From IMG/VR virus record IMGVR_UViG_3300005747_000506, positions 1-22,179 of that record: a stretch of 22,179 bases of DNA, one strand, 5' to 3'. Shown one piece after another: positions 2,022-21,278 of the stretch; the stretch's first letter is position 1; each line of letters opens with the position of its first letter. This DNA comes from a virus. The translations under genes were made by a program, and so were the position numbers. Below the pieces are notes generated by a model. That model did no database searches. It was not told the origin of the DNA and was given only the letters and a program-made list of their open reading frames with translations.

Positions 2022-3494
2022 TTACCCAAGAAAGCCGAAGCCGCTAGTTGCGCCAAACGCGCCAAGAGCCGAGCCGCCTAGGCTAAACAGCCCCTGCGTC
2101 AACATTTGATTGTGCTGCGCCCTTGCCTGCGCATTGGCCAAATCGCCTTGATAGCTGGCATAGGCCGCGCCCTGGTAATCCGGGGCCTGAATGTTCGCTT
2201 GCGGCGTGTTAACAAAGTTGGGCTGCTGCACTTGCGTTCCGCTGTTGATTGCGGAAATCTCGTTCAGTGGCGTTTGCCGCAATAGCATGCGCTCTTGGAT
2301 AGCCTGCTGACGTGCTGCGTTGTTCATTGCGGCTTGCTGGGCTGCAAACTGCGCTTCCGTCACGTTCTGACCGTACTGCTGCGCCTGCGCCTGGTTGTTG
2401 AAGCCCGCCGCCGTGGCCTCCGCGCCAAGGCGCTGCAACATCGCATCATTCGTAAAGCCGCGCTCTGCCATGTTCTGGCCAAACTGCTGGCCCGCGGCCT
2501 GGTTGTTAAACCCTGCGCGCGCCAACTGATTGCCATAGTCCTGCTGGATCGCCGCGTTGGCGACTCCAGTTTGTGCCATGTTCTGGCTAAAGCGCTGGCC
2601 TTGGGCCTGATTGCCAAACTGTCCCGCGGCAAGGTCCATGCCGAAAAGTCTGCTTTGCTCATTCCCGGCGTTGATAATCGCGCCTAACCGCGCGTCGTTT
2701 TCTTGGCGGTTAACCAAATCCATCGACTCACGATAGCCATCGCTGCGGCGGTCAGTGAAACCCATGTTTGCCAACCGGGTAGACTCTGCATCGCGGCGTT
2801 GGTCGAGGTACGGTTGCATCCGGTCCATAAGAGCCTGCTCAACCCGCATGCGGTCATCACCGAAATCGTCCGCGCCAACGCGCCCCTGAATACCGCCACT
2901 TGGCGCTATAGTGCCTATCGCGGACGGTGCTGCCGCGCCCGCGTATTGCGGCCCCCTGCCAGCGTCAAACGAGCCGGAGATATTCGGCGCGTAATCGTTA
3001 TCCAGATAGTTGACGCGGCCGGCATCAGCAATGCCAGCGCTACTGCCCTGGAACTCCGGCAGGCCGTCAAAATTGAGGGGCTGGCCAAGCGCATCCTTGG
3101 TCAATGACAACTGCTGGTTGGCCGTATCGAGCGTGCCTTGTTGCAGGTCCATCTGACCTTGTTGTAACCGCTCCCCGGCAGGCGTGAGACTTGTCACTGC
3201 CTCATATTTGGGGCCTAGCGTTACTTGCGTATTGAAAATTGGCGCGCTGGAGTCAGGAGCCCCGCCTTGGCCGTTTTTCAGTCGCAGTGCCGCCCGCTCA
3301 TCATACAAGGTCTGATTGAACCGGTTGTAGGTGAAATCTTCCCCGGTCGGCACATACTCCAGAGTACCATAAGGCGTGCTCTGGTTGGTCTGGTTCAGCC
3401 TATTTTGCGTGTAGGCCGTTTCATTGTTGATCGTGCCTTGAGCCGCTGCGGTGCGCACCGGATCGGGCGGGCTCGGCATGCTAGGAGCACACAT
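2022..3494 (-). CDS. Gln/Asn/Ala-rich ejection-type virion protein with internal repeats
   Basis: 490 residues. ATG at 3494 has AAGGA about seven bases upstream and lies inside the 3' end of the GNAT gene (14-bp overlap). The N-terminus MCAPSMPSPPDPVRTAAAQ followed by an NRLNQTNQSTPYG segment is of a type I associate with podoviral structural proteins. Residues 290-398 contain three Gln/Asn-rich repeats of about 36 residues. The stretch TPLNEISAINSGTQVQQPNF (~408-427) and the Gly/Ala-rich hydrophobic C-terminus (466-490) are also typical and could contact membrane. Likely packed in the virion and ejected with the DNA or attached to the tail; no enzyme motif is visible. Coding status is sure; the exact role is inferred. 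Confidence 0.75.
   Translation of the reverse strand: MCAPSMPSPPDPVRTAAAQGTINNETAYTQNRLNQTNQSTPYGTLEYVPTGEDFTYNRFNQTLYDERAALRLKNGQGGAPDSSAPIFNTQVTLGPKYEAVTSLTPAGERLQQGQMDLQQGTLDTANQQLSLTKDALGQPLNFDGLPEFQGSSAGIADAGRVNYLDNDYAPNISGSFDAGRGPQYAGAAAPSAIGTIAPSGGIQGRVGADDFGDDRMRVEQALMDRMQPYLDQRRDAESTRLANMGFTDRRSDGYRESMDLVNRQENDARLGAIINAGNEQSRLFGMDLAAGQFGNQAQGQRFSQNMAQTGVANAAIQQDYGNQLARAGFNNQAAGQQFGQNMAERGFTNDAMLQRLGAEATAAGFNNQAQAQQYGQNVTEAQFAAQQAAMNNAARQQAIQERMLLRQTPLNEISAINSGTQVQQPNFVNTPQANIQAPDYQGAAYASYQGDLANAQARAQHNQMLTQGLFSLGGSALGAFGATSGFGFLG
2301..2627 (-). repeat. Three ~36-residue protein repeats inside the ejection-type gene
   Basis: The encoded protein repeats the pattern A-G-(Q/F)-(F/N)-N-Q-A-x-(G/A)-Q-(Q/R)-(F/Y)-x-Q-N three times, beginning at residues 290, 327 and 363 with spacings of 37 and 36. 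Each unit has a weaker half-unit of about 18 residues (VANA, FTND, FAAQ). The DNA copies have diverged, so this is an old protein-level duplication rather than a recent tandem repeat. A long helix or fibrous rod is a reasonable guess. Confidence 0.7.
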
Positions 3495-3969
3495 GGGCTT
3501 TTCCTTTGAACCTGTAGACCATTTTCGTAGAGACTTCCCGGAAGCCCATTCTTTGCCAAATCTTGGCCACTCTCAGGTCAGTAACTGGCTCCACATAAGC
3601 CAGCGTCACGCCTGAGGCTTCCAAGTGCGCCAGCACAAACCGGACCATTTTCTTGCCCAGCCCGTTGCGATGCTCTGGGAGGACGTAAATTGCATCTTCT
3701 TGGGCGATAACTTCGCCGCTGTGCATGTCGTTGGTGATGTAGACGTTGCAGTATCCAACCGCCTCGCCCTCATCGGTGCGGGCGATGATGTTCAGCAGCC
3801 ACCCATCGCGCGCGGCCTGGAAGTACTGGTCAAGCCGCGGGTTGAATGGGCTGGTTGGCAGACCGTCCGCCTCAAGCCGGGCATTCATTTCCGCATAGTG
3901 CTGCCGGTAGATCGGCTCCATTTCATCATAATTCAGGTCGAAGCGCTCAAGCGCGATGCAATAGGTCAA
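3481..3969 (-). CDS. GNAT-family N-acetyltransferase
   Basis: GNAT fold enzyme, expected to move an acetyl group from acetyl-CoA to an unknown amine. The acetyl-CoA-binding motif A is clear: IYVLPEHRNGLGKK (about residues 94-107 from the TTG start), where the R-x-G-x-G-K part holds the pyrophosphate. It is preceded by a beta strand (EVIAQEDA) and followed by motif B around KIWQRMGFREVSTKMVYRFKG. I prefer TTG at 3969 because it overlaps the upstream TGA as TTGA, the same junction used by terL; this gives 162 residues. An in-frame ATG at 4011 gives 176 residues but lacks a ribosome site and overlaps the upstream gene by 46 bp. It sits between two virion genes, so it is made late; its target may be a virion protein or host envelope component, which the sequence does not show. 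Confidence 0.85.
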   Translation of the reverse strand: MTYCIALERFDLNYDEMEPIYRQHYAEMNARLEADGLPTSPFNPRLDQYFQAARDGWLLNIIARTDEGEAVGYCNVYITNDMHSGEVIAQEDAIYVLPEHRNGLGKKMVRFVLAHLEASGVTLAYVEPVTDLRVAKIWQRMGFREVSTKMVYRFKGKAHVCS

Positions 3970-5630
3970 AGCGGCCCGCCAACTCTGAACAGATATTGCA
4001 CGCCCAGCCATTCGCCGCGCTGGGTGGCTTGAGAGAAGGCTGTCGTACTCTGGATGCGAACATTGACCGCCGCAGAGCGCCCCGTTCTTCCCCCCGCCTT
4101 ACGATAGCGCAAGATTTTCTTATAAATTACACCGACAAGGGTGCCGCTGGGGCCGAACGCGCGGCCCGTGACTTCCTGCTCATCTGTCATCAATACTGTC
4201 GTCGGATCGGGCTTGTTAATCAGTGTTGCAAAAACAGTTTCGTATCGGCTGAATGTCTTTTTGTTCGTTGGGAGCCCAAAATCATTAAACGCCGTTACGC
4301 ATTCGTACTTGACGTTCTCTCCACTGTCGTCAAACCGCCGGAACTCATCGACAACCCTGACGCCCGCACCATTGGCATAATAAATCAGAGAAGATTCCTC
4401 CCCATCCCTTTGATAACTCACGAAACTGCCAGCTTTTATTCCTGGGAACTCGCACGCAGCACCCGTGACGGTGTTAAACGCAAGAGCCCAGCCGTCGCTA
4501 TACCCTGACCACTCCGCATCGTCGCTAGGTTGCGTGCGCGGGCAATTCGTATCTTGCCCCAAATTGAGGATGAGCATTCGCCTTTCCGGGTGGATGGTCA
4601 GCGATACTTGGTTGATATCGTTCGCCCGCGCTTGGCGAACAGCCTCCCGGTATCCCTCCAGAATTTTGCCCGTGTAGGGGCTCATTTGCTGCGATGCAAT
4701 AGGATTGCCGAGCACTTGCGATATCGGAATGATGCCATCGTAAGTGGCTATCAATAGATCGCTGCCAGACTGCACGGCAGAGCGTCGGTTGAGCGGCGCT
4801 CCAATCCGAAATACGCCAATCAGCGCCCAAGTGGTTGAACTAGCCGGGTCGGTGCCTTCGTAAAGGATGGCCTCGCCCTCTGACGTGACAAAAACGGCAA
4901 CATCGTTGACGCCGTCGCCACCGTCTCGCGTCCATGTCCACATGTTGACGATGTAACCGCCGCGCTGGGCAACGCCGCCAAGGTCAAAGCTGGTCGCCGT
5001 GTCCGCAATAGCCTCTGTCGCCAGATAGTAGGCTTGCAGGCTATCCTTCATGCCAAACCAAACGCGCTTTTGATGCGAAGAAAACCAGGCGATATCTGAG
5101 ATAGTGACCCCGGTTATCTCAACATCGTTGGCAATCGTTCCGTCATAGATTTTTGCGTTGTCCACACCGTTAGCCAGGAACAAATAATTCCCAGCGATGT
5201 TGGCAAATTGTGCGCCGGTCCAATAGGGGCTGCTAACGCCTGTCGCGCCAACTGTTTCTAGCCCATCAGTTTGATCGGGGCTGTAGCGGAAAAGATCGCT
5301 CTCAATCCCCACGATGACTTCACCTTCGCCATCTGTGCCGTTGTAGGCTTCCATCCCCCCCGCAACCCAATCATTGAAATAGTCGCTTTCGTTCAGGTAT
5401 GTAATTTGGAATTCTGCTGAAAATTCCTTTGAAAAACCCCACGGCACCAGCCCCTGAGAAGCGGTGCCGCCCCGGTAGCGCACCTTGCCCACGTCAGGGA
5501 AGAAGTTAATCATGCGGACGGCATCGGTTGGCGGCATGCTGTCCAAGCCCTGCTCAGTGTTCCAGCCACCAGAAGGAGCGGGCACAAAAACAGAGTGAGC
5601 GCTTTGCCGCTCTTTCCGTTTGCGCGCCAT
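3966..5630 (-). CDS. P22 gp10-like tail / packaged-DNA-stabilisation protein
   Basis: 554 residues, starting at ATG 5630 that overlaps the upstream TAA (TAATG). After a basic N-terminus comes GGWNTEQGLDSMPPTDAVRM then INFFPDVGKVRYRGGTA, a pattern I recall from podoviral tail-hub proteins of roughly this size. The rest is beta-rich with repeated short strands and many Trp, Tyr and Gly residues, consistent with the propeller-like fold known for P22 gp10. In P22, gp10 joins the tail tube below the portal and adaptor and prevents DNA leakage. Order here (coat, adaptor, spike proteins, this gene, ejection proteins) fits. Assignment to gp10 is by length, N-terminal pattern and context, not by a catalytic motif. 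Confidence 0.6.
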   Translation of the reverse strand: MARKRKERQSAHSVFVPAPSGGWNTEQGLDSMPPTDAVRMINFFPDVGKVRYRGGTASQGLVPWGFSKEFSAEFQITYLNESDYFNDWVAGGMEAYNGTDGEGEVIVGIESDLFRYSPDQTDGLETVGATGVSSPYWTGAQFANIAGNYLFLANGVDNAKIYDGTIANDVEITGVTISDIAWFSSHQKRVWFGMKDSLQAYYLATEAIADTATSFDLGGVAQRGGYIVNMWTWTRDGGDGVNDVAVFVTSEGEAILYEGTDPASSTTWALIGVFRIGAPLNRRSAVQSGSDLLIATYDGIIPISQVLGNPIASQQMSPYTGKILEGYREAVRQARANDINQVSLTIHPERRMLILNLGQDTNCPRTQPSDDAEWSGYSDGWALAFNTVTGAACEFPGIKAGSFVSYQRDGEESSLIYYANGAGVRVVDEFRRFDDSGENVKYECVTAFNDFGLPTNKKTFSRYETVFATLINKPDPTTVLMTDEQEVTGRAFGPSGTLVGVIYKKILRYRKAGGRTGRSAAVNVRIQSTTAFSQATQRGEWLGVQYLFRVGGPL

Positions 5631-13913: not shown

Positions 13914-15226
13914 TATGCAGCCATCCAGCCGGATTGATTAGCCCGCTTGGCCTTCGACGGCATGCGATTACCAACCTTTCGCGTCATCTGGGGGAATAGC
14001 TCAGTAAAGCCCCATACCAGCGCGTCCACTCTATCGGGAGAGTAGCCCGCTTTTTTGCGGTCCAGGTCAGGCTTGAAGCTGCACATTTGGTTTTCCAGAG
14101 CCGCGAACTCCCCCACATGGAAGACCTTCCGGCGCTCATAAAGAGCCGCCAAGGGCTCGGCGCGGGTGTACTTGCCTCGGGTAGCTCGGACATCGCGAAA
14201 CGGCAGCCCAGGGCGTACCGCTTTAATGGTATTGCCCACCATGTCGCCTCCCTGGTTCGTTTCCGCTATAATCATGTCAGCTTCCCAAATGTCATATGCA
14301 GCAACAGCCGCGCGCGCCCATTCATCGGGCTTCATCCGCCCGCTTACATCGTCCAGCACATAGCCATTGCCCGCGCCATCAATGCCCACAACGACAATGC
14401 CGGTTTCGTCACTGCCGGGCTCGGTAGTCACCGCTGGGTCAATCGCAACCACAATGCGGGCCATGTCTGGCGTCTCGTTTGACCGCAGGATGACCGCGCG
14501 CCGCCAAAGGGCATCAACGTCATCGCTGCCGTACTTGCCTTCATAGAAGCGCTTACGTTGCGCTGGGGGGAGGGAGCGCAGATCGGCCAAGTACTCTGCC
14601 GACAGGTTCGCCGCGTTGTCCTCTGGGTTGACCACAACAGCGCCGTATTGCTCTGTGTCGATGGGCGTCTTTTCGATTGGGTCGATGCCGTCATACCAAA
14701 GCTGGTATGTCCAATGCTGATCGACCGTTGGATTCAAATCCACATACATGCGCTGCGAGAGGGGCTGACCCTCAATCGTCATCGCGGTTGCCGCAAGCCG
14801 GGTTCTCAGCAGGTTGTATGCCGAGTAGGTCATCTGGCTCGCTTCGTTTGGGTAAATGGTGCTGTATTCGTTGCCTAGAATACGCTCCATCGCGGCCTCA
14901 TCGTTCAGACCGCCGATCCAAACCTCAGAGCCGTTGGGCAATTGGAAATAGCTGTATTCACCATTCCATTTGTAAGGCATGCCGGGCCAGCGAACTTGGC
15001 AAACTTCTGGCCACGTCCCTTTAACGATGGCGCGCTTGGCTGCCGTCGCTTCCTGCCTGACAATCAAATGCCGGGACTTAGGGGCGATCAACGCCCGCTC
15101 AATCACAGTGCCAGTAATGTCAAACGTCTTGCCTGACCGTGAGCCGCCATAGACCAAACAGAAACGCTTCCCCGCCGTCAGAAGCTCGCGCATCCTGATC
15201 TGACCGGGGTTGCGGATGTAGGTCAA
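13913..15226 (-). CDS. Terminase large subunit
   Basis: 437 residues. The start is TTG at 15226, overlapping the terS TGA as TTGA; no ATG occurs before residue 12. The packaging ATPase shows Walker A GGSRSGKT (27-34), a Walker B-like strand ending NE (STIYPNEAS, 122-130), and the motif III-like YVDLNPT (161-167). The nuclease domain has the acidic triad VVAIDPAV (Asp263), IIAETNQGG (Glu322) and SPDRVDALVWG (Asp398/Asp401), as in RNase H-fold terminases. With TerS it recognises phage DNA, docks on the portal and cuts and pumps the genome. Whether packaging is headful or site-specific cannot be read from the sequence. Confidence 0.95.
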   Translation of the reverse strand: MTYIRNPGQIRMRELLTAGKRFCLVYGGSRSGKTFDITGTVIERALIAPKSRHLIVRQEATAAKRAIVKGTWPEVCQVRWPGMPYKWNGEYSYFQLPNGSEVWIGGLNDEAAMERILGNEYSTIYPNEASQMTYSAYNLLRTRLAATAMTIEGQPLSQRMYVDLNPTVDQHWTYQLWYDGIDPIEKTPIDTEQYGAVVVNPEDNAANLSAEYLADLRSLPPAQRKRFYEGKYGSDDVDALWRRAVILRSNETPDMARIVVAIDPAVTTEPGSDETGIVVVGIDGAGNGYVLDDVSGRMKPDEWARAAVAAYDIWEADMIIAETNQGGDMVGNTIKAVRPGLPFRDVRATRGKYTRAEPLAALYERRKVFHVGEFAALENQMCSFKPDLDRKKAGYSPDRVDALVWGFTELFPQMTRKVGNRMPSKAKRANQSGWMAA

Positions 15227-15600
15227 AGCTTGCTCGTGTCGCTTTCCAGGTTAACGGTGAAACTCCCACCAACTTCCAACTTATCGCCCCATTTCTTGGG
15301 CTTCATCTTGCCAGCCAACCATTTGCGCGTATCCAAGCGAACGCGGCGGTCATCCGACGCGAGCGCAGAATTGTCGGCAATATCAAGCATTTCGTCAGCA
15401 AGAGTGTCAGCTTGGTCGTCTTTTGCGCGCACGTATTGGTTCAGAAATTCTTCACGCTCTCTTAACCATCGGTGCACATGGCCAGCGCTCGGCATGTGCT
15501 TTTCCCGGCAAATCGCTCTAAGACTTTCGCCCTCGACTAAGCGCTCGCATATTTCGTCGGCGAGGCTTTGATTAAAAGGGAAGGCTTTTCGGGCTGGCAT
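15223..15600 (-). CDS. Terminase small subunit
   Basis: 125 residues from ATG 15600, with GAGAGAG just upstream. The N-terminal helix-turn-helix (~14-50: ICERLVEGESLRAICREKHM then SAGHVHRWLRERE) is the DNA-binding domain of this terminase family. A helical oligomerisation region follows (~52-110, VRAKDDQADTLADEMLDIAD), and a short beta-like tail ends it. It forms a ring that selects phage DNA and hands it to TerL. The gene begins only ten bases after an intrinsic terminator, so its expression probably depends on read-through or antitermination. Confidence 0.88.
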   Translation of the reverse strand: MPARKAFPFNQSLADEICERLVEGESLRAICREKHMPSAGHVHRWLREREEFLNQYVRAKDDQADTLADEMLDIADNSALASDDRRVRLDTRKWLAGKMKPKKWGDKLEVGGSFTVNLESDTSKL

Positions 15601-15609
15601 TGCTCTCTC

Positions 15610-15638
15610 AAAAAAATACCCCGGCGGTTAGGCCGGGG
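15610..15638 (-). terminator. Promoter-distal intrinsic terminator upstream of terS
   Basis: On the minus strand CCCCGGC (from GCCGGGG at 15632-15638) pairs with GCCGGGG (15625-15619) around a six-base loop, followed by TATTTTTTT. This is a textbook strong terminator located just before the terS ribosome site. Confidence 0.85.
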
Positions 15639-15669
15639 CTAGTTGCACAGGGGGAGATTGATGGAACGC

Positions 15670-15700
15670 AAAAACCCCGCGGGCGGTTAGGCCAACGGGG
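15670..15700 (-). terminator. Promoter-proximal intrinsic terminator upstream of terS
   Basis: On the minus strand CCCCG-TT-GGC-CTAACC-GCC-CG-CGGGG (15700-15675) is followed by TTTTT. It shares the loop sequence GGCCTAACCGCC-like core with the terminator 32 bp further on, so the two look like a duplicated pair. Confidence 0.75.
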
Positions 15701-15737
15701 TCATAGCTGCTCTGACAACTCATGCAGCATGACATGG

Positions 15738-15810
15738 TTAGAGCATATTTGCGCAAAGGCTGTCAAGTGGACGGATAAGGGGGCTTTCAGGAGCGCTATC
15801 CGTCTACTTG
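15738..15810 (-). promoter_or_regulatory. Putative late promoter with 14-bp inverted repeat
   Basis: A minus-strand TTGACA (15766-15761) is followed 17 bases later by CTCTAA (15743-15738), a poor -10, so an activator may be needed. The spacer holds the palindrome TTTGCGCAAA (15748-15757). The -35 edge overlaps one arm of an inverted repeat, CAAGTGGACGGATA (15764-15777) and TATCCGTCTACTTG (15797-15810), with one mismatch and arm centres 33 bp apart, about three helical turns. This looks like a binding site for a dimeric regulator upstream of the tandem terminators. Confidence 0.5.
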
Positions 15811-15831
15811 GTAGCCGCCCGCTCCAAACCA

Positions 15832-16305
15832 TCACTTCCACCCCTTAAGCTTCGCCATAACGTCAAGCGCTTCGCGCAGGTCTTGGGTCATCCTCGCGCC
15901 TCGCGTGCGGTTGCGCGTGATCTCGCTGATAGCCTTACCTTCCCCGCAGATTATCACAGCGGCGCGCCAGTCAACGGCGTTGAAGAGGCATTCATTCTGC
16001 CAGGCGAAATAGTCAGCTTTGAGATACTGCACGGCCTCAGCGTGAGAGGCATGCCCTTTCGGCTCAATCAGGCGAGCAAGGTCCACCGCTGGGGCGAGCG
16101 AACCGTGCGTTGCCCTATGCCCTCGGTAGACATGCTCCGCCGCGGACTGCTGGCTGTCGGAAAGATTGTCCCAAAGCTTGGCGTGCATTGCGCATCGATT
16201 ATGGGCGATGGTTGTCCGCTTGCCGTTGGCTGTATGCGAAACAGTCGTCTCAACGGGCTCAACGGGATGGTATTTCGCGCGGTGATCTAGGACGTGGTCA
16301 GTCAT
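15832..16305 (-). CDS. Hypothetical protein, last gene before the late region
   Basis: I take ATG at 16305 (157 residues, MTDHVLDHRAKYHP) because AAGGG lies about seven bases upstream and the ATG overlaps the end of the 66-residue gene by eight bases. In-frame ATGs at 16335 and 16401 would overlap that gene further. A helix with LSDSQQSAAEHVYRGHRATHG (split about residues 50-70) and a C-terminal segment with ICGEGKAISEITRNRTRGAR then ALDVMAKLKGWK suggest a helical, perhaps DNA-binding, domain. The end resembles small alphaproteobacterial phage proteins that lie before the terminase genes, but I cannot name a family. It sits immediately before the putative late promoter, a usual place for an antiterminator or late regulator; that role is only inferred. 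Confidence 0.6.
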   Translation of the reverse strand: MTDHVLDHRAKYHPVEPVETTVSHTANGKRTTIAHNRCAMHAKLWDNLSDSQQSAAEHVYRGHRATHGSLAPAVDLARLIEPKGHASHAEAVQYLKADYFAWQNECLFNAVDWRAAVIICGEGKAISEITRNRTRGARMTQDLREALDVMAKLKGWK

Positions 16306-16498
16306 TTGCACCCTTGCGTTGGTCGATTGCGTCATAAGCCCAAGCGGTTCGCGCTGAGGCGCGGGTAATCCAAGCGGTTTTGCAGTATCGGTCCACCCCA
16401 AGAATTGGCAGAAACACTGCTTTTATCAGGCCGTATTTCCAGATTGCCCGATAGGCGTCGGCCAAGACGTTGTCCGAAAAGCAGGCGGGGTTAAGCAT
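16298..16498 (-). CDS. 66-residue hypothetical protein
   Basis: ATG at 16498 follows the stop of the alpha-CTD-like gene by three bases and has AAGGG seven bases upstream. The product begins MLNPACFSDNVLADAYRAIW, has one moderately hydrophobic segment (~24-36, GLIKAVFLPILGV) and a basic, aromatic C-terminal half. It could be a small membrane-associated or nucleic-acid-binding protein. Family unknown; tight coupling and a good ribosome site support translation. Confidence 0.55.
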   Translation of the reverse strand: MLNPACFSDNVLADAYRAIWKYGLIKAVFLPILGVDRYCKTAWITRASARTAWAYDAIDQRKGAND

Positions 16499-16501
16499 CG
16501 G

Positions 16502-17080
16502 CTAACCCTTCCACTTCGGGTGCAGGAAAGCACAAGTTTCCCACCAATCAGTTTCGCGCCGCAAGTCAAGCCCGATGCTTTCCAATGCCCGCACTATTTC
16601 TTTAAAGGTTTCTGGGCCTAAGTTTGGCGTGAAGTAGTAATCGCGCCCGCCAATGCTCAAAACATCATCGATAATTTTTGCCCCAGAGTTTCTAAGACAA
16701 TTTTCGGCGCGGCCTCCTAAGCCTAAAGTCTCGATTGGCCTCTTTTTCAGGGGCAATGCGCGCATTGCATCCTCGTCCGCCCTGATTTTGTCCGCTCTTT
16801 TCTCCAAGCATTCTGAGTCATCGAAGCCCAAAACATAGCGGCACATGCTATGCGCCCGCTTCTGCTTGCAAATGTCACGGATCGCTCTGTGTAGTCTCTC
16901 TCTGTTCCTGACCGAGCTTTGGCTTACGCCTGACGGCAGGCTGTCCGCGGTCTGTTTCACCGTTTTTCCATCCAGCGTAGACAACAGAATAACCCTATCG
17001 GCTTCATGCTTTACCAAATAAGCGTGTTCGCGGAAGAATCCGGCATGCTCCCGGCATCTTGCCCTTGTTTTTCTCGTCAT
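16502..17080 (-). CDS. Putative transcription regulator: sigma-region-4-like HTH plus RNA polymerase alpha-CTD-like domain
   Basis: 192 residues from ATG 17080. Residues ~27-72 (ADRVILLSTLDGKTVKQTAD then SQSSVRNRERLHRAIRDI) have the spacing of a sigma-70 region 4 or similar HTH. Residues ~112-175 resemble the C-terminal domain of the RNA polymerase alpha subunit: PIETLGLGGRAENCLRNSGA, a helix, then TPNLGPETFKEIVRALESIG. Compared with E. coli alpha, the DNA-contact residues Arg265, Asn268 and Cys269 are matched by Arg124, Asn127 and Cys128; Gly296 and Glu302 by Gly155 and Glu161; Lys298 is replaced by Glu and Ser299 by Thr. Alpha-CTD-like helix-hairpin-helix domains also occur in proteins unrelated to transcription, so function is not proven. 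It lies in the regulator cluster just before the putative late promoter, so a role as late activator is a fair hypothesis. Confidence 0.65.
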   Translation of the reverse strand: MTRKTRARCREHAGFFREHAYLVKHEADRVILLSTLDGKTVKQTADSLPSGVSQSSVRNRERLHRAIRDICKQKRAHSMCRYVLGFDDSECLEKRADKIRADEDAMRALPLKKRPIETLGLGGRAENCLRNSGAKIIDDVLSIGGRDYYFTPNLGPETFKEIVRALESIGLDLRRETDWWETCAFLHPKWKG

Positions 17081-17083
17081 AAC

Positions 17084-17434
17084 TCAACCCTTCCATGTGT
17101 AGTGGAACACCCAGCCGCCATCGCCGCGGGTGAGCGGCCTGCGTGAAATCATGCCCAAATCTGCCATTCGCTGAGTCCCGCGAAGCAATGTGCGCTTAGG
17201 CACGCCGGTTGCCGTGGAGATTTCTTCTGTCGCTGCGGTGGTTTCCCCGACTGATTGCAAATAGGCGGCAACGATCCTCGCGGAATAGTCCAGGCGCTTA
17301 TCCGTCAATGGATTGGATAGCACTTTAAAGACGTTTTCAGGCCCCGTGAGCGGCCTTCTCTCTTTTGCCGTCTCGATATGCGGGAAATTGCAAGATAGCC
17401 ACTCCTGAGCCTCCTGAGCGCTTCTAGGCTGCAT
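17084..17434 (-). CDS. Winged-helix DNA-binding protein
   Basis: 116 residues. ATG at 17434 has GGAGG nine bases upstream and overlaps the upstream gene by 11 bp. Residues ~50-112 form a winged helix: a first helix (DYSARIVAAYLQSVG), a helix-turn-helix (ATEEISTATGVPKRTLLRGT), and a wing with LGMISRRPLTRGDGGWVFHY. This is the topology of MarR/IclR-like and phage regulatory domains. The first ~45 residues carry no recognised domain. The last codons (WKG) contain the ribosome site GGAAGGG for the following gene. Likely a transcriptional or replication regulator; target unknown. Confidence 0.6.
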   Translation of the reverse strand: MQPRSAQEAQEWLSCNFPHIETAKERRPLTGPENVFKVLSNPLTDKRLDYSARIVAAYLQSVGETTAATEEISTATGVPKRTLLRGTQRMADLGMISRRPLTRGDGGWVFHYTWKG

Positions 17435-17648
17435 TTACATCGTCCTCCCAGATTGAATGAGTGCAATCCCAATAATCCATCGCGGATTGCGGGTTGGCGA
17501 AGATGGCCAGGACCAAGTCGTGGTCGTCGGCGGGCGTGATGATCCAGCCGGGCCCCGCTTTCCGGCACTGATAGCCATCGTCGCGAACATGGATCACGTA
17601 GGGCTCAGGCAAGGTGTCGGTCCCGAAGGCGCGCGCGGTCCAGGTCAT
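17424..17648 (-). CDS. 74-residue hypothetical protein
   Basis: ATG at 17648 overlaps the stop of the Fis-like gene as ATGA and has GGAG eight bases upstream. The product (MTWTARAFGTDTLPEPYVIH onward) is acidic with many Trp, Asp and Tyr residues, and the middle reads as a short beta sheet followed by a helix (PADDHDLVLAIFANPQSAMD). No known motif. It is part of the early/regulatory operon by spacing alone. Confidence 0.6.
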   Translation of the reverse strand: MTWTARAFGTDTLPEPYVIHVRDDGYQCRKAGPGWIITPADDHDLVLAIFANPQSAMDYWDCTHSIWEDDVNAA

Positions 17649-17833
17649 GGCTTGTACTCCGGCACGGTCAAGGCTTGCTCGCGAACAACGCGCTGGAGCT
17701 GTCCGCGGTCCATGCCCAGAGCTTTCGCGGCCTTGGTCCTGTTCCCGTGGGAAGCTGCCAGGGCACCGAGTACCAGGGCGTTGCGTTCGGCAACATGGCG
17801 CTTGCGCATTGCGCGATATGGGGTGTCTGCCAT
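17645..17833 (-). CDS. Fis-type helix-turn-helix small protein
   Basis: 62 residues from ATG 17833 with GGGAG seven bases upstream. Residues ~22-53 (LGALAASHGNRTKAAKALGM then DRGQLQRVVRE) match the HTH of the Fis and NtrC C-terminal domain family, where G-N-(R/K)-T-x-A-A-x-x-L-G is the typical signature. Fis-type proteins bend DNA and bind as dimers. Coming directly after the helicase gene, it may act on the phage origin or on a middle/late promoter; neither is shown. Confidence 0.7.
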   Translation of the reverse strand: MADTPYRAMRKRHVAERNALVLGALAASHGNRTKAAKALGMDRGQLQRVVREQALTVPEYKP

Positions 17834-17837
17834 GGCT

Positions 17838-19223
17838 CTACTCCCTGAACAGCATGAGCGGCGCGTTGAAGTGCATTTGAATCCTACCCTCTGGCCCGTG
17901 GCGGTTTTTGGCTATGTCAACGTCCGCCTTGCCCTTGGCGGCTTCCATGGCTGCGAGCCAGTCGTCGTATTCAGCGCTTGCTTCATCTGGTTGTGACCGG
18001 CGCAGGTAATATTCTTCCCGGTAGATAAAGATTACCGCGTCTGCGTCCTGCTCGATTGAGCCGCTGTCCCGCAAATCAGAGAGCAGGGGCCGCTTGTCAT
18101 CCCTGGACTCGACGCCGCGATTGATCTGGGCAAGCGCCAGGACCGGCACGGCAAGCGCCTTGGCGATGCCTTTGACGGCGGCGCTGATTTCGGTGATTTC
18201 CTGCGTGCGGTTGGAATATTTGCTCTCCCGGTCGCTGCGCATGAGTTGCAGATAGTCGATAACGATCAGGTCCAGGCCCTGCTTGCGCTGGATTTTCTGG
18301 CACTGGCTGCGGATGTAAGCGGGCGTAACGGCTTCCCGGTCATCGATAGCGATTTTGAGGCTGGCCATCTGGTCCCGCGCTTGGGCCAGGCGCTCAAAGG
18401 CTGCCGGGTCCAGCTTGCCGCGTGATGCGTCATGGGCTGGCACGTTGGCCGCGGCACACACGATGCGCCCTGTGACTTGGCTCTGTGGCATTTCCAAGCT
18501 GAACATCGCCACGGACTTGCCTTGCGCGGCGGTGTTGAAAACGATGTTTGTGGCCAGCGAGCTTTTGCCGGAGCCGGGACGGCCTGCCAGAATGTAGAGG
18601 TTTGATGCGCCCAAGCCGCCTAGGGTGTCATCCATGCTGGGGAAGCCGGTAGGGAGCCCCTGGATAGCGCCGCCGTTCATGTAGGCTTGCTCATAGGTCG
18701 CCAGGATATCATCGATACCGCCGGCCCAGGACTTCGCCGCGTCCGGGCCTTGCGGGTCTAGCTCGGCTAGCTGGGATTCCAGCCATTGGACTTGCTCCGC
18801 AAGAGGCTGACGGGTCGAGTGGACGCTATCGGACAATTCCTCGCTGATGCCGATTAAGCGGCGTTTGCGGTAAAGCTCAGCGATGTAGCGCGCGCTGTAG
18901 GCCAGAGCGTCTGGCGTCATCACGGTCAGCGCGTTGGCCAGCAGAGCACCGACACACTCGCGCGCTTCCGGCGGTGGCATGAAGCGCTGCTCTGCCAGGC
19001 ACGCCGCAATCACGCTGGCGTTGATGGCGAAATGCTCCGCGGCCATGTCGCGGGCGATGGCAAAAATGCACTGGTGGACGCCATCGGCAAAATGCTCCGG
19101 CTCCAGGATGCCAGCAACCGCGGTGAAGTTTTCCGGTTTGGCCAGACACTCTCCAAGCAAGGTTTGCTCTGTTTCCAGGTCGCACGGCGGCTCGCGTTGG
19201 GCTGTGATGGTGTCAAAGGGCAT
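17838..19223 (-). CDS. Replicative DNA helicase, DnaB type
   Basis: 461 residues from ATG 19223, chosen because GGAG lies six bases upstream; ATG 19235 and TTG 19238 are in frame but lack a ribosome site, although the TTG makes a TTGA overlap with the initiator stop. The N-terminal DnaB domain (~12-110, DLETEQTLLGECLAKPENF) is followed by the linker and RecA-like motor. Walker A is GRPGSGKSS (214-222), Walker B DLIVIDYLQL (~318-327), the glutamine/arginine-finger loop QINRGVESR (366-374), and the conserved LSDLRDSGSIEQDAD (381-395). The hexamer unwinds the phage replication fork. A phage-encoded DnaB next to an initiator suggests the phage loads its own helicase. Confidence 0.92.
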   Translation of the reverse strand: MPFDTITAQREPPCDLETEQTLLGECLAKPENFTAVAGILEPEHFADGVHQCIFAIARDMAAEHFAINASVIAACLAEQRFMPPPEARECVGALLANALTVMTPDALAYSARYIAELYRKRRLIGISEELSDSVHSTRQPLAEQVQWLESQLAELDPQGPDAAKSWAGGIDDILATYEQAYMNGGAIQGLPTGFPSMDDTLGGLGASNLYILAGRPGSGKSSLATNIVFNTAAQGKSVAMFSLEMPQSQVTGRIVCAAANVPAHDASRGKLDPAAFERLAQARDQMASLKIAIDDREAVTPAYIRSQCQKIQRKQGLDLIVIDYLQLMRSDRESKYSNRTQEITEISAAVKGIAKALAVPVLALAQINRGVESRDDKRPLLSDLRDSGSIEQDADAVIFIYREEYYLRRSQPDEASAEYDDWLAAMEAAKGKADVDIAKNRHGPEGRIQMHFNAPLMLFRE

Positions 19224-19234
19224 GGGGTGCTCCA

Positions 19235-20158
19235 TCAATCATAGGCCAGGGCGCGGGCGCTCCGTTCGGCACGCTCCCGCAACTGGGCTTCCGTCAGCTT
19301 TGGTTTTGCTGTTGGCGCTTTGCCGTTGTGGTAGAAGCCCTCGACCAAGCGCGCGAACTTGGCCGGGTTGCAGACGAAATCCAGATCGGCGCGAAATGCG
19401 ATTTCCGTCTTGCCGGTTAGCGTCCTGCTGCTGGCCACCGACTCGACGGCCTCAAGCCATGCGTCGATACCGCCTGCCTCGGCGATCCGCAGCCTCAGCT
19501 TTTGCTCCCGGGAGGGCGAGAGAATTTTCGCTTGCGGTAATCCGGCTTTGGCTGCGGTGGCGTTCCAAGCATCGAACGCTTGTCGGATTTCTGAGGTTGA
19601 TCCAGAGGCGCAAGGTGGCCCGGCAGGTGGCTCCGTATCCGGGCCAGTATCGCCTCGCTGTCCGAGTCCACTTTCTTTGTCATTTTCGGCCTCGCCTTCT
19701 CGGCCCCCTTCCAAGGGGGTTTGGGGGTTGTGTTTTTCGTCTGGTCTTTCGTCTGGTCTTATAGTTTGTCCCGCGGCTGTCCCGCGGCTGTCCCGCCTTG
19801 GCGATTTTGCCTGTCCCGTTTTATTTTCGCCAAGCTGATAAATGTCGTAATTACAAATAGTTATAACGGTAACGCCTGTCCCGCTGTCTGTCCCGATGCT
19901 GTCCCGCTTTTTTAACCGTTTTAAAAACCTATCAACCGTGCTCTTTTCCCATGACCATGCGTCCGCTAAAAACCTAATAGAAACAGCTAGTTGGCCGCGT
20001 TGCAGCGGGATAATCTTGTCGCCGACGCGCTTGTCTCTGGCCTTCCATGACGCCTCCATCACGAGATAGATAAACGCCTCGCGCTCGGTGAATGGCTGGC
20101 GTTTGAACGCGGGGTTTGACCAAATTGACCTCGCAATATTGACGGTCCCGCCGCTCAT
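19235..20158 (-). CDS. Replication initiator-like protein (lambda O-like organisation)
   Basis: 307 residues; ATG 20158 overlaps the rusA stop as ATGA and has GGAGG seven bases upstream. The N-terminal ~100 residues form a winged helix of phage replication proteins: RSIWSNPAFKRQPFTEREAF, GQLAVSIRFLADAWSWEKST and VDRFLKRLKKRDSIGTDSGT. A low-complexity linker (~115-190) rich in Arg, Gly, Glu and Asp follows, encoded by the iteron-like DNA. The C-terminal domain (~190-300) is helical (EIRQAFDAWNATAAKAGLPQ then LRLRIAEAGGIDAWLEAVES). It probably binds the repeats in its own gene and recruits the DnaB-type helicase made by the next gene. No DnaC-type loader was found in the window. Confidence 0.7.
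   Translation of the reverse strand: MSGGTVNIARSIWSNPAFKRQPFTEREAFIYLVMEASWKARDKRVGDKIIPLQRGQLAVSIRFLADAWSWEKSTVDRFLKRLKKRDSIGTDSGTGVTVITICNYDIYQLGENKTGQAKSPRRDSRGTAAGQTIRPDERPDEKHNPQTPLEGGREGEAENDKESGLGQRGDTGPDTEPPAGPPCASGSTSEIRQAFDAWNATAAKAGLPQAKILSPSREQKLRLRIAEAGGIDAWLEAVESVASSRTLTGKTEIAFRADLDFVCNPAKFARLVEGFYHNGKAPTAKPKLTEAQLRERAERSARALAYD
19736..19759 (-). repeat. Perfect 12-bp tandem duplication in the initiator gene
   Basis: TTCGTCTGGTCT occurs twice back to back (19736-19747, 19748-19759). In the protein it encodes the repeat RPDE-RPDE in the linker. It lies next to the iteron cluster. Confidence 0.85.
19767..19906. repeat. Iteron-like repeats: candidate replication origin inside the initiator gene
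   Basis: Seven copies of TGTCCCG start at 19767, 19778, 19789, 19812, 19877, 19889 and 19900. Spacings are 11, 11, 23 (about two units), a 65-bp gap, then 12 and 11, so within each group they sit on one face of the helix. The 58-bp stretch between the fourth and fifth copies is AT-rich (TTTTATTTTCGCC onward, with ATTACAAATAGTTATAA). Eleven is not a multiple of three, so the repeats are not explained by repeated amino acids. Direct repeats flanking an AT-rich stretch in an initiator gene is the design of the lambda origin in gene O. Confidence 0.7.
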
Positions 20159-20908: not shown

Positions 20909-20937
20909 ACGATATTGAAATATTTTCAAGATGTCAA
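20909..20937 (-). promoter_or_regulatory. Leftward early promoter with repressor operator in its spacer
   Basis: Minus-strand -35 TTGACA (20937-20932), a 17-bp spacer, then -10 TATCGT (20914-20909). The spacer contains the perfect palindrome TTGAAATATTTTCAA (20915-20929; TTGAAA arms around TAT). A protein bound there would block RNA polymerase. The same 15 bp occur, on the other strand, at 21463-21477. Confidence 0.8.
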
Positions 20938-20961
20938 TCTGTGATTTGTTTCACATGCGGT

Positions 20962-20983
20962 ATGAATTTTTTTCAGCTATATA
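20962..20983 (+). promoter_or_regulatory. Candidate repressor promoter with degenerate operator
   Basis: A -10 TATATA lies at 20978-20983, exactly seven bases before the ATG at 20991. ATGAATTTTTTTCAG (20962-20976) matches the 15-bp operator at 11 of 15 positions, keeping the TGAA and TTCA half-sites. No good -35 is seen at the right distance, so this promoter is probably weak or activated, as for lambda PRM. Autoregulation is inferred. Confidence 0.5.
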
Positions 20984-20990
20984 CGCAAGG

Positions 20991-21278
20991 ATGATTAGAG
21001 AGCCTGACGATCCCAAAGAAATCGGCGCGCGCCTAGAGTGGCTGCGTGGCTTCCTGGGCTACAGCATGCCGGAGTTTGCCGAAGCTGTAGGCGTCAAATA
21101 TGATCGCTATTATAATTGGGAAACGGGGAGGAGCAGAATCTCCCCGGAAGGCGCTAACCGTATTTGGGAAGATTACGGCGTCTCATATGACTTTTTGTTT
21201 TTAGGCATAGCAGGTAGGTTGCCTGCTGAAATGATGTCGTCTTGGCTTGCATCGCAAAAGGACCGCGACACTAAATAG
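20991..21278 (+). CDS. Short XRE-family phage repressor (CI-like)
   Basis: 95 residues from ATG 20991; earlier in-frame starts at 20931 and 20955 would run through the operator region and lack ribosome sites. Residues ~12-66 form an XRE helix-turn-helix (IGARLEWLRGFLGYSMPEFA, then EAVGVKYDRYYNWETGRSRI), with the conserved Y-x-x-W-E-x-G-x-x-x-I that closes HTH_3 domains. The C-terminus (67-95) is short; there is no S24/LexA-type peptidase, so induction cannot be by RecA-stimulated self-cleavage. It is divergent from the Cro-like gene, beside three copies of the TTGAAA-type palindrome, and is therefore the most likely binder of those sites. Confidence 0.75.
   Translation: MIREPDDPKEIGARLEWLRGFLGYSMPEFAEAVGVKYDRYYNWETGRSRISPEGANRIWEDYGVSYDFLFLGIAGRLPAEMMSSWLASQKDRDTK

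Follow-up and report, generated by a model that had tools for sequence, protein, structure and literature searches.

A phage protein of a P22-like podovirus combines an RNA polymerase alpha C-terminal domain with a probable helix-turn-helix

In this study, we report that a small protein of a P22-like podovirus, P0001, carries in its C-terminal half a true homologue of the C-terminal domain of the RNA polymerase alpha subunit (alpha-CTD), as judged from sequence comparison and structure prediction. Its N-terminal half is probably a helix-turn-helix (HTH) of the sigma-4/LuxR kind. We infer for this protein an HTH, DNA binding and an action on transcription, and we give an even chance to the reading of P0001 as an accessory early-operon regulator that binds DNA and has an alpha-CTD module of its own.

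The analysed DNA, hereafter the window, is an IMG/VR virus record of 22,179 bp. By its gene content, the virus is a P22-like podovirus: the window encodes proteins matching the P22 portal (E 7.5e-168) and the P22 coat (E 7.5e-35), as well as a Sf6-type TerS, a TerL, a DnaB helicase, an O/DnaD-like initiator and a RusA-like resolvase. A gene for a CI-like repressor is found at 20931-21278, on the strand opposite to the P0001 operon, and the phage is therefore probably temperate. Several of its relatives sit in alphaproteobacterial genomes. A scan of the window for Rfam families and tRNAs found nothing, and a GNAT acetyltransferase gene (3481-4011) was noticed amid the structural genes, with a 46-bp overlap with the next gene.

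All genes from the RusA-like gene to the left end of the window are on the minus strand. Among them, P0001 (16502-17080, taken from the list of open reading frames and its translation) encodes 192 amino acids that can be read as a probable HTH front half, an alpha-helical linker, the alpha-CTD and a short tail. It starts with an ATG preceded by GGAAGGG and is tightly packed among genes of the same strand, with gaps of 3 nt to both the upstream and the next ORF. Its GC content of 51.3%, compared with 58% for the window, is the lowest of the minus-strand genes. The replication genes (DnaB, 17838-19238) lie on one side of P0001 and the late control region on the other, and two further small HTH/wHTH genes (17645-17833 and 17084-17434) are found beside it. 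The latter, directly upstream of P0001, encodes a small wHTH-like protein that weakly matches a CARF-associated model of PADLOC (E 0.0008).

The alpha-CTD, with its helix-hairpin-helix DNA-binding fold, spans residues 109-167 (16580-16756, minus strand). With PF03118 (RNA_pol_A_CTD), P0001 scores 37.9 bits for a curated cut-off of 23.8 (E 1.5e-9), and 40 bits in a genome search. Its phmmer matches in the PDB at E <= 0.001 are RNA polymerase alpha subunits, the best of them with E 4.7e-6. The AlphaFold2 model, for which ten aligned phage alpha-CTDs were supplied and which was thus informed by alpha-CTD relatives only, has block-mean pLDDT values of 85-96 over residues 91-170; without an alignment, the pLDDT is 38.6 and the model is not usable. 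Foldseek superimposes the predicted structure on solved alpha-CTDs with an rmsd of 1.2-1.4 Å across 64 residues, and the model agrees with DNA-bound alpha-CTD structures such as 3n97, 1lb2 and 9zum. Helix-hairpin-helix families of DNA repair gave no Pfam match for P0001; only RNA_pol_A_CTD and sigma models did, and the top fold matches are alpha subunits. The alpha-CTD pattern that an earlier note on this DNA had placed at residues ~112-175 is thus borne out. The alpha N-terminal domain (alpha-NTD) is absent from P0001, as the NCBIfam models of RpoA match it by their C-terminal part only, far under their cut-offs.

In E. coli alpha, the 265 determinant contacts DNA, the 261 determinant contacts sigma and the 287 determinant contacts activators such as CRP. 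P0001 aligns without gaps with positions 250 to 323 of this protein, at ~30% identity to RpoA. Five of the seven residues of the 265 determinant (R265, N268, C269, G296, K298, S299 and E302) are identical: R265 corresponds to R124, N268 to N127, C269 to C128, G296 to G155 and E302 to E161. The other two are K298, replaced by E157 with a charge reversal, and S299, conservatively replaced by T158; the gap-free alignment confirms the matches and replacements that the earlier note gave for these positions. N294 and the tail residue W321 are likewise retained. The 261 determinant is altered (D259T, E261G), and so is the 287 determinant (T285G, E286G, V287R, R317E). As the 265 residues are mostly kept and those of the other two surfaces are lost, the sequence points to DNA binding rather than to activator or sigma contact. 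Moreover, the columns that are invariant among P0001 and ten phage alpha-CTDs are R265, N268, C269, L270, G296 and E302. Nearly all of these are classical contacts to DNA, an argument that the alpha-CTD module is retained in phages for DNA binding.

The N-terminal half is less clear-cut. A candidate sigma region 4-like HTH covers residues 29-67 (16880-16996, minus strand), where the best remaining Pfam families in the whole protein are Sigma70_r4_2 (E 0.0051) and Sigma70_r4 (E 0.13). When residues 1-108 are searched alone, these values become 0.0022 and 0.07, and down to 0.0008 when the segment is cut out. The region 4 models (PF08281/PF04545) reach 16.9-19.4 bits on P0001, under the curated cut-off of 25.7, and nothing but sigma region 4 models comes above chance for this half. 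AlphaFold2, for which this half had no aligned relatives, predicts strands and no HTH there (pLDDT 40-73), a low-confidence result that counts neither for nor against an HTH, and a PDB search with this half returned no match worth keeping. This half is basic, with 24 K/R for 16 D/E. The sigma-4-like HTH of the earlier note is thus partly confirmed, as a suggestion from Pfam scores under the cut-off. Within the 192 residues, we found no sigma region 2 (-10 recognition and core binding) and no other domain, in particular no kinase, nuclease or other recognisable enzymatic domain; searches against defence and other phage families gave no match either. No homologue of the N-terminal half was found in 385 alphaproteobacterial genomes; two marginal matches were rejected, one being antisense to a longer ORF and the other requiring three in-frame stops.

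P0001 is missing from 88 loci whose TerL is related and from 13 records of related viruses, 11-43 kb long, and is thus not part of a conserved switch. A peptide-pattern search of viral and genome contigs returned no close homologue. By tblastn against phages and plasmids, the matches were RpoA genes, in several phage records probably from host contamination, together with a solo alpha-CTD on a Brevundimonas plasmid; at this locus, a further match to residues 60-102 was discarded, as it lies ahead of the probable start of the plasmid gene. The full protein searched against 100 genomes of the phylum essentially retrieved RpoA; the single addition was a weak match within a frame of 1659 aa. A second PF03118 match exists in 12 of 289 genomes from the class of the Vannielia genome behind locus L017 (G001, an alphaproteobacterium), and at least seven of these are something other than split rpoA genes. 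Alpha-CTD-like ORFs of very small size that stand alone were also seen in bacterial genomes and on the plasmid (L101:2656-2910, L105:2980-3210 and L012:1152-1805), the one on the Brevundimonas plasmid being unannotated.

Other phages do encode alpha-CTDs. Viral contigs were scanned with an alignment of RpoA and P0001, and 11 loci were retrieved (L107-L117); an alignment of very diverse alpha-CTDs was too variable to serve as a pattern. In three of them, an HD-type dNMP phosphatase has a C-terminal alpha-CTD (L113:3458-4177, with phrog_318 at E 7.3e-87 and PF03118 at E 5.7e-13; also L114 and L115); in the remaining ones, the domain stands alone or behind coiled-coil or short unknown parts. Ruegeria phage vB_RpoS-V16 encodes a protein (P0002, L126:5923-6789) in which an N-terminal alpha-CTD (PF03118 E 1.2e-10) is followed by a MazG-like pyrophosphatase (phrog_5658 E 3.5e-52); this protein is named as an HTH-domain protein in GenBank and as a pyrophosphatase in RefSeq. 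In Bacillus phage Goe8, the domain is found in a 210-aa protein, and UniProt already gives the name 'RNA polymerase alpha subunit C-terminal' to proteins of uncultured Caudovirales, Mycobacterium phage Mithril and Rhodococcus phage Finch. The phage alpha-CTDs form a single clade in none of 200 bootstrap trees, in a poorly resolved tree where P0001 is a long branch, which suggests that they arose by several captures.

Two ORFs separate P0001 from the late control region, which lies on the minus strand directly before the gene for the small terminase subunit, terS (15223-15600; Sf6_terminase E 6.6e-39, phrog_1482 E 4.8e-39), the first late gene. This region contains an operator-like inverted repeat of 20-nt arms, 85% complementary and 19 nt apart (upstream arm 15797-15816, inner arm 15758-15777). 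Each arm has a -35-like hexamer, TTGACA (15766-15761) in the inner one and TTGGTA in the other, and the motif occurs nowhere else in the window. The TTGACA opens a promoter-like site read from the sequence (15737-15766), in which 18 nt separate it from TCTAAC with a TGn motif, giving the extended -10-like sequence TGCTCTAAC at 15745-15737. Two terminator-like hairpins with T tracts follow, at 15669-15701 (-19.5 kcal/mol, z -3.1) and 15611-15639 (-17.7 kcal/mol, z -3.1; also returned by a terminator scan). They have a 24-nt repeat (79%) in common, and the second stops ~10 nt short of the terS start. As there is no space for a promoter 3' of the hairpins, late transcription from the promoter-like site would have to cross two terminators, and this layout looks like an antitermination control of the lambda pR'-tR' type. 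No clear -10-like element for a sigma-dependent pause could be seen just past the presumed start site. A late promoter 0.8 kb downstream of P0001, as previously proposed, is plausible as a promoter-like sequence that a consensus scan does not accept; it is the inverted repeat and the tandem hairpins that stand out instead.

Between P0001 and this region, the gene at 15832-16401 (minus strand) is a candidate late antiterminator gene. Its first start, a TTG, overlaps the preceding ORF; the ATG at 16305, which overlaps the stop codon of that ORF and has AAGGG upstream, is likely the real start. The product matches phrog_21451, of unknown function (E 5e-5). In the closest relative, L002, whose TerL is 70% identical, a weak homologue of this gene (L002:1877-2455; phmmer E 0.0013, pairwise BLASTP E 2e-6) occupies the same position. 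It is followed at L002:2475-2580 by two terminator-like sequences, in the same place and of unrelated sequence, the second ending at the terS ATG; both were found by reading, and a strict scan passes the second only. As P0001 is absent from L002, the gene at 15832-16401 appears to be a better candidate than P0001 for the late antiterminator. Across 51 relatives, a strict search retrieved terminators before terL at 3 loci; this rarity indicates that the layout is not general in the phage group.

Altogether, we propose that P0001 would be a DNA-binding protein with an accessory role in this P22-like podovirus, expressed from the early/replication operon. Its alpha-CTD would have been acquired from a bacterial source and retained as a minor-groove DNA-binding module, with the HTH-like half supplying sequence specificity. 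The protein would most likely bind at least one phage promoter and alter its use by the host RNA polymerase, while the late switch would more likely come from 15832-16401, by antitermination at the two terminator-like hairpins. The domain by itself does not imply a role in transcription, since the same module is joined to enzymes in other phages. Indeed, P0001 might be a DNA-tethering adaptor for a non-promoter role (replication, recombination, nucleotide metabolism or counter-defence) and its alpha-CTD simply a portable DNA-binding module. The fusions to a dNMP phosphatase and to a MazG-like pyrophosphatase, the alpha-CTD-like domain that precedes wHTH modules in PglW (PMC12839542) and the location of P0001 in one gene string with replication genes are all consistent with this. 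However, P0001 itself has no recognisable enzymatic domain and the closest resemblance of its other half is to a DNA-binding HTH, so that we regard such a role as rather unlikely. The low GC content and long branch of P0001 might also indicate that it is what is left of a captured rpoA fragment, without a function. This seems very improbable, as the ORF is intact, has a ribosome-binding site, is closely packed with its neighbours and retains the diagnostic DNA-contact residues at such a low identity to RpoA.

The regulatory alternatives differ in their target. P0001 could be a decoy alpha-CTD that silences host transcription by competing with activators, or with the host polymerase for UP elements. 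Host alpha is indeed a target of phages, as described for Rac of phiKMV-like phages (PMC7552054), and most DNA-contact residues are there; yet the loss of the 287 and 261 residues would leave competition for DNA only, at high concentration, and K298 is reversed to glutamate, which makes a decoy unlikely. P0001 itself could also be a Q-like late antiterminator or a late activator acting at 15611-15816, given its location upstream of the promoter-like site and of the tandem hairpins directly before terS, the -35-like hexamer within an arm of the inverted repeat, and the sigmaR4-like 21Q that binds late promoter DNA (PMC6606751). We consider this quite unlikely, as the domain order of Q proteins (PMC9371919) is opposite to that of P0001, L002 has the tandem terminators with a relative of 15832-16401 and no P0001, and no clear pause element was seen. 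The boldest version is that P0001 mimics sigma region 4 and the alpha-CTD of the host holoenzyme in one chain, binds the inverted repeat (15758-15816) as a dimer and controls the late promoter by replacing the upstream contacts of the polymerase; this appears quite improbable. The related proposal of the earlier note, a polymerase mimic steering the host enzyme to the late promoter, is possible though not favoured, given the changed 261 and 287 surfaces and the better switch candidate nearby. An accessory regulator of the early operon is thus the reading that we retain.

Our results underline that phages use the alpha-CTD as a portable part: it stands alone, comes after coiled coils, is joined to nucleotide-cleaning enzymes and, here, lies behind a probable HTH. 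Should P0001 act on promoters, it would replace the UP-element contact in a compact form. As a side result, we describe a late operon behind tandem terminator-like hairpins and a candidate antiterminator gene in a P22-like phage group, which are directly testable.

Several known systems can be compared with P0001. The alpha-CTD of RpoA has the same fold and length, most of the 265 determinant and W321; P0001 differs from RpoA by its other N-terminal half, the loss of the 261 and 287 determinants, the K298E change and the lack of an alpha-NTD, without which it cannot assemble into RNA polymerase. Like 21Q, AlpA and lambda Q, small HTH regulators of phages or prophages, it may be encoded ahead of a terminator-guarded operon, as the sequence suggests, with two ORFs in between. 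The fold of 21Q resembles sigmaR4, and this protein binds late promoter DNA (PMC6606751); in the known Q proteins, a nozzle forms the N-terminal part and the HTH lies at the C-terminus (PMC9371919). However, these regulators have no alpha-CTD, P0001 shows the reverse order (HTH-like part at residues 29-67, alpha-CTD at the end), and the gene at 15832-16401 fits the position of a Q gene better. Phage Mu Mor binds an inverted repeat that adjoins or overlaps the -35 region of Pm, with host alpha-CTD bound beside it (PMC4390567); while Mor uses the domain of the host, P0001 has its own, and no homology was found between the two proteins.

The named phage alpha-CTD proteins and those of L107-L117 are also phage-encoded and free of an alpha-NTD; those that were read have other N-terminal parts (none, coiled coil, short unknown, HD phosphatase or MazG) and never the front half of P0001. 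Outside phages, in PglW of BREX type 2, wHTH modules come after an alpha-CTD-like domain (PMC12839542). In a 604-aa bacterial protein (L102), alpha-CTD and Sigma70_r4 both pass their cut-offs, with a PADLOC match to PglW over that stretch (E 1.5e-5); P0001 gave no PADLOC match, PglW included. The gene for this bacterial protein (L102:2849-4660) has a counterpart with an identical translation at L106:2660-4471, in a genome of a different size, which may reflect a mobile element or contamination. PglW and L102 share with P0001 a chain that joins an alpha-CTD-like domain to HTH modules, or in P0001 to an HTH-like part; they are large and bacterial, with the alpha-CTD before the HTH, whereas in P0001 it comes after the HTH-like part. 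Among the phage proteins searched, we found no second case of a probable HTH followed by an alpha-CTD in a protein of this kind, in line with the earlier statement that no phage regulator of this layout was described, even if phage alpha-CTD proteins and fusions are not in themselves unprecedented. Altogether, alpha-CTDs on unrelated partners and their pairing with an HTH were already known, while the order and pairing seen in P0001 look new.
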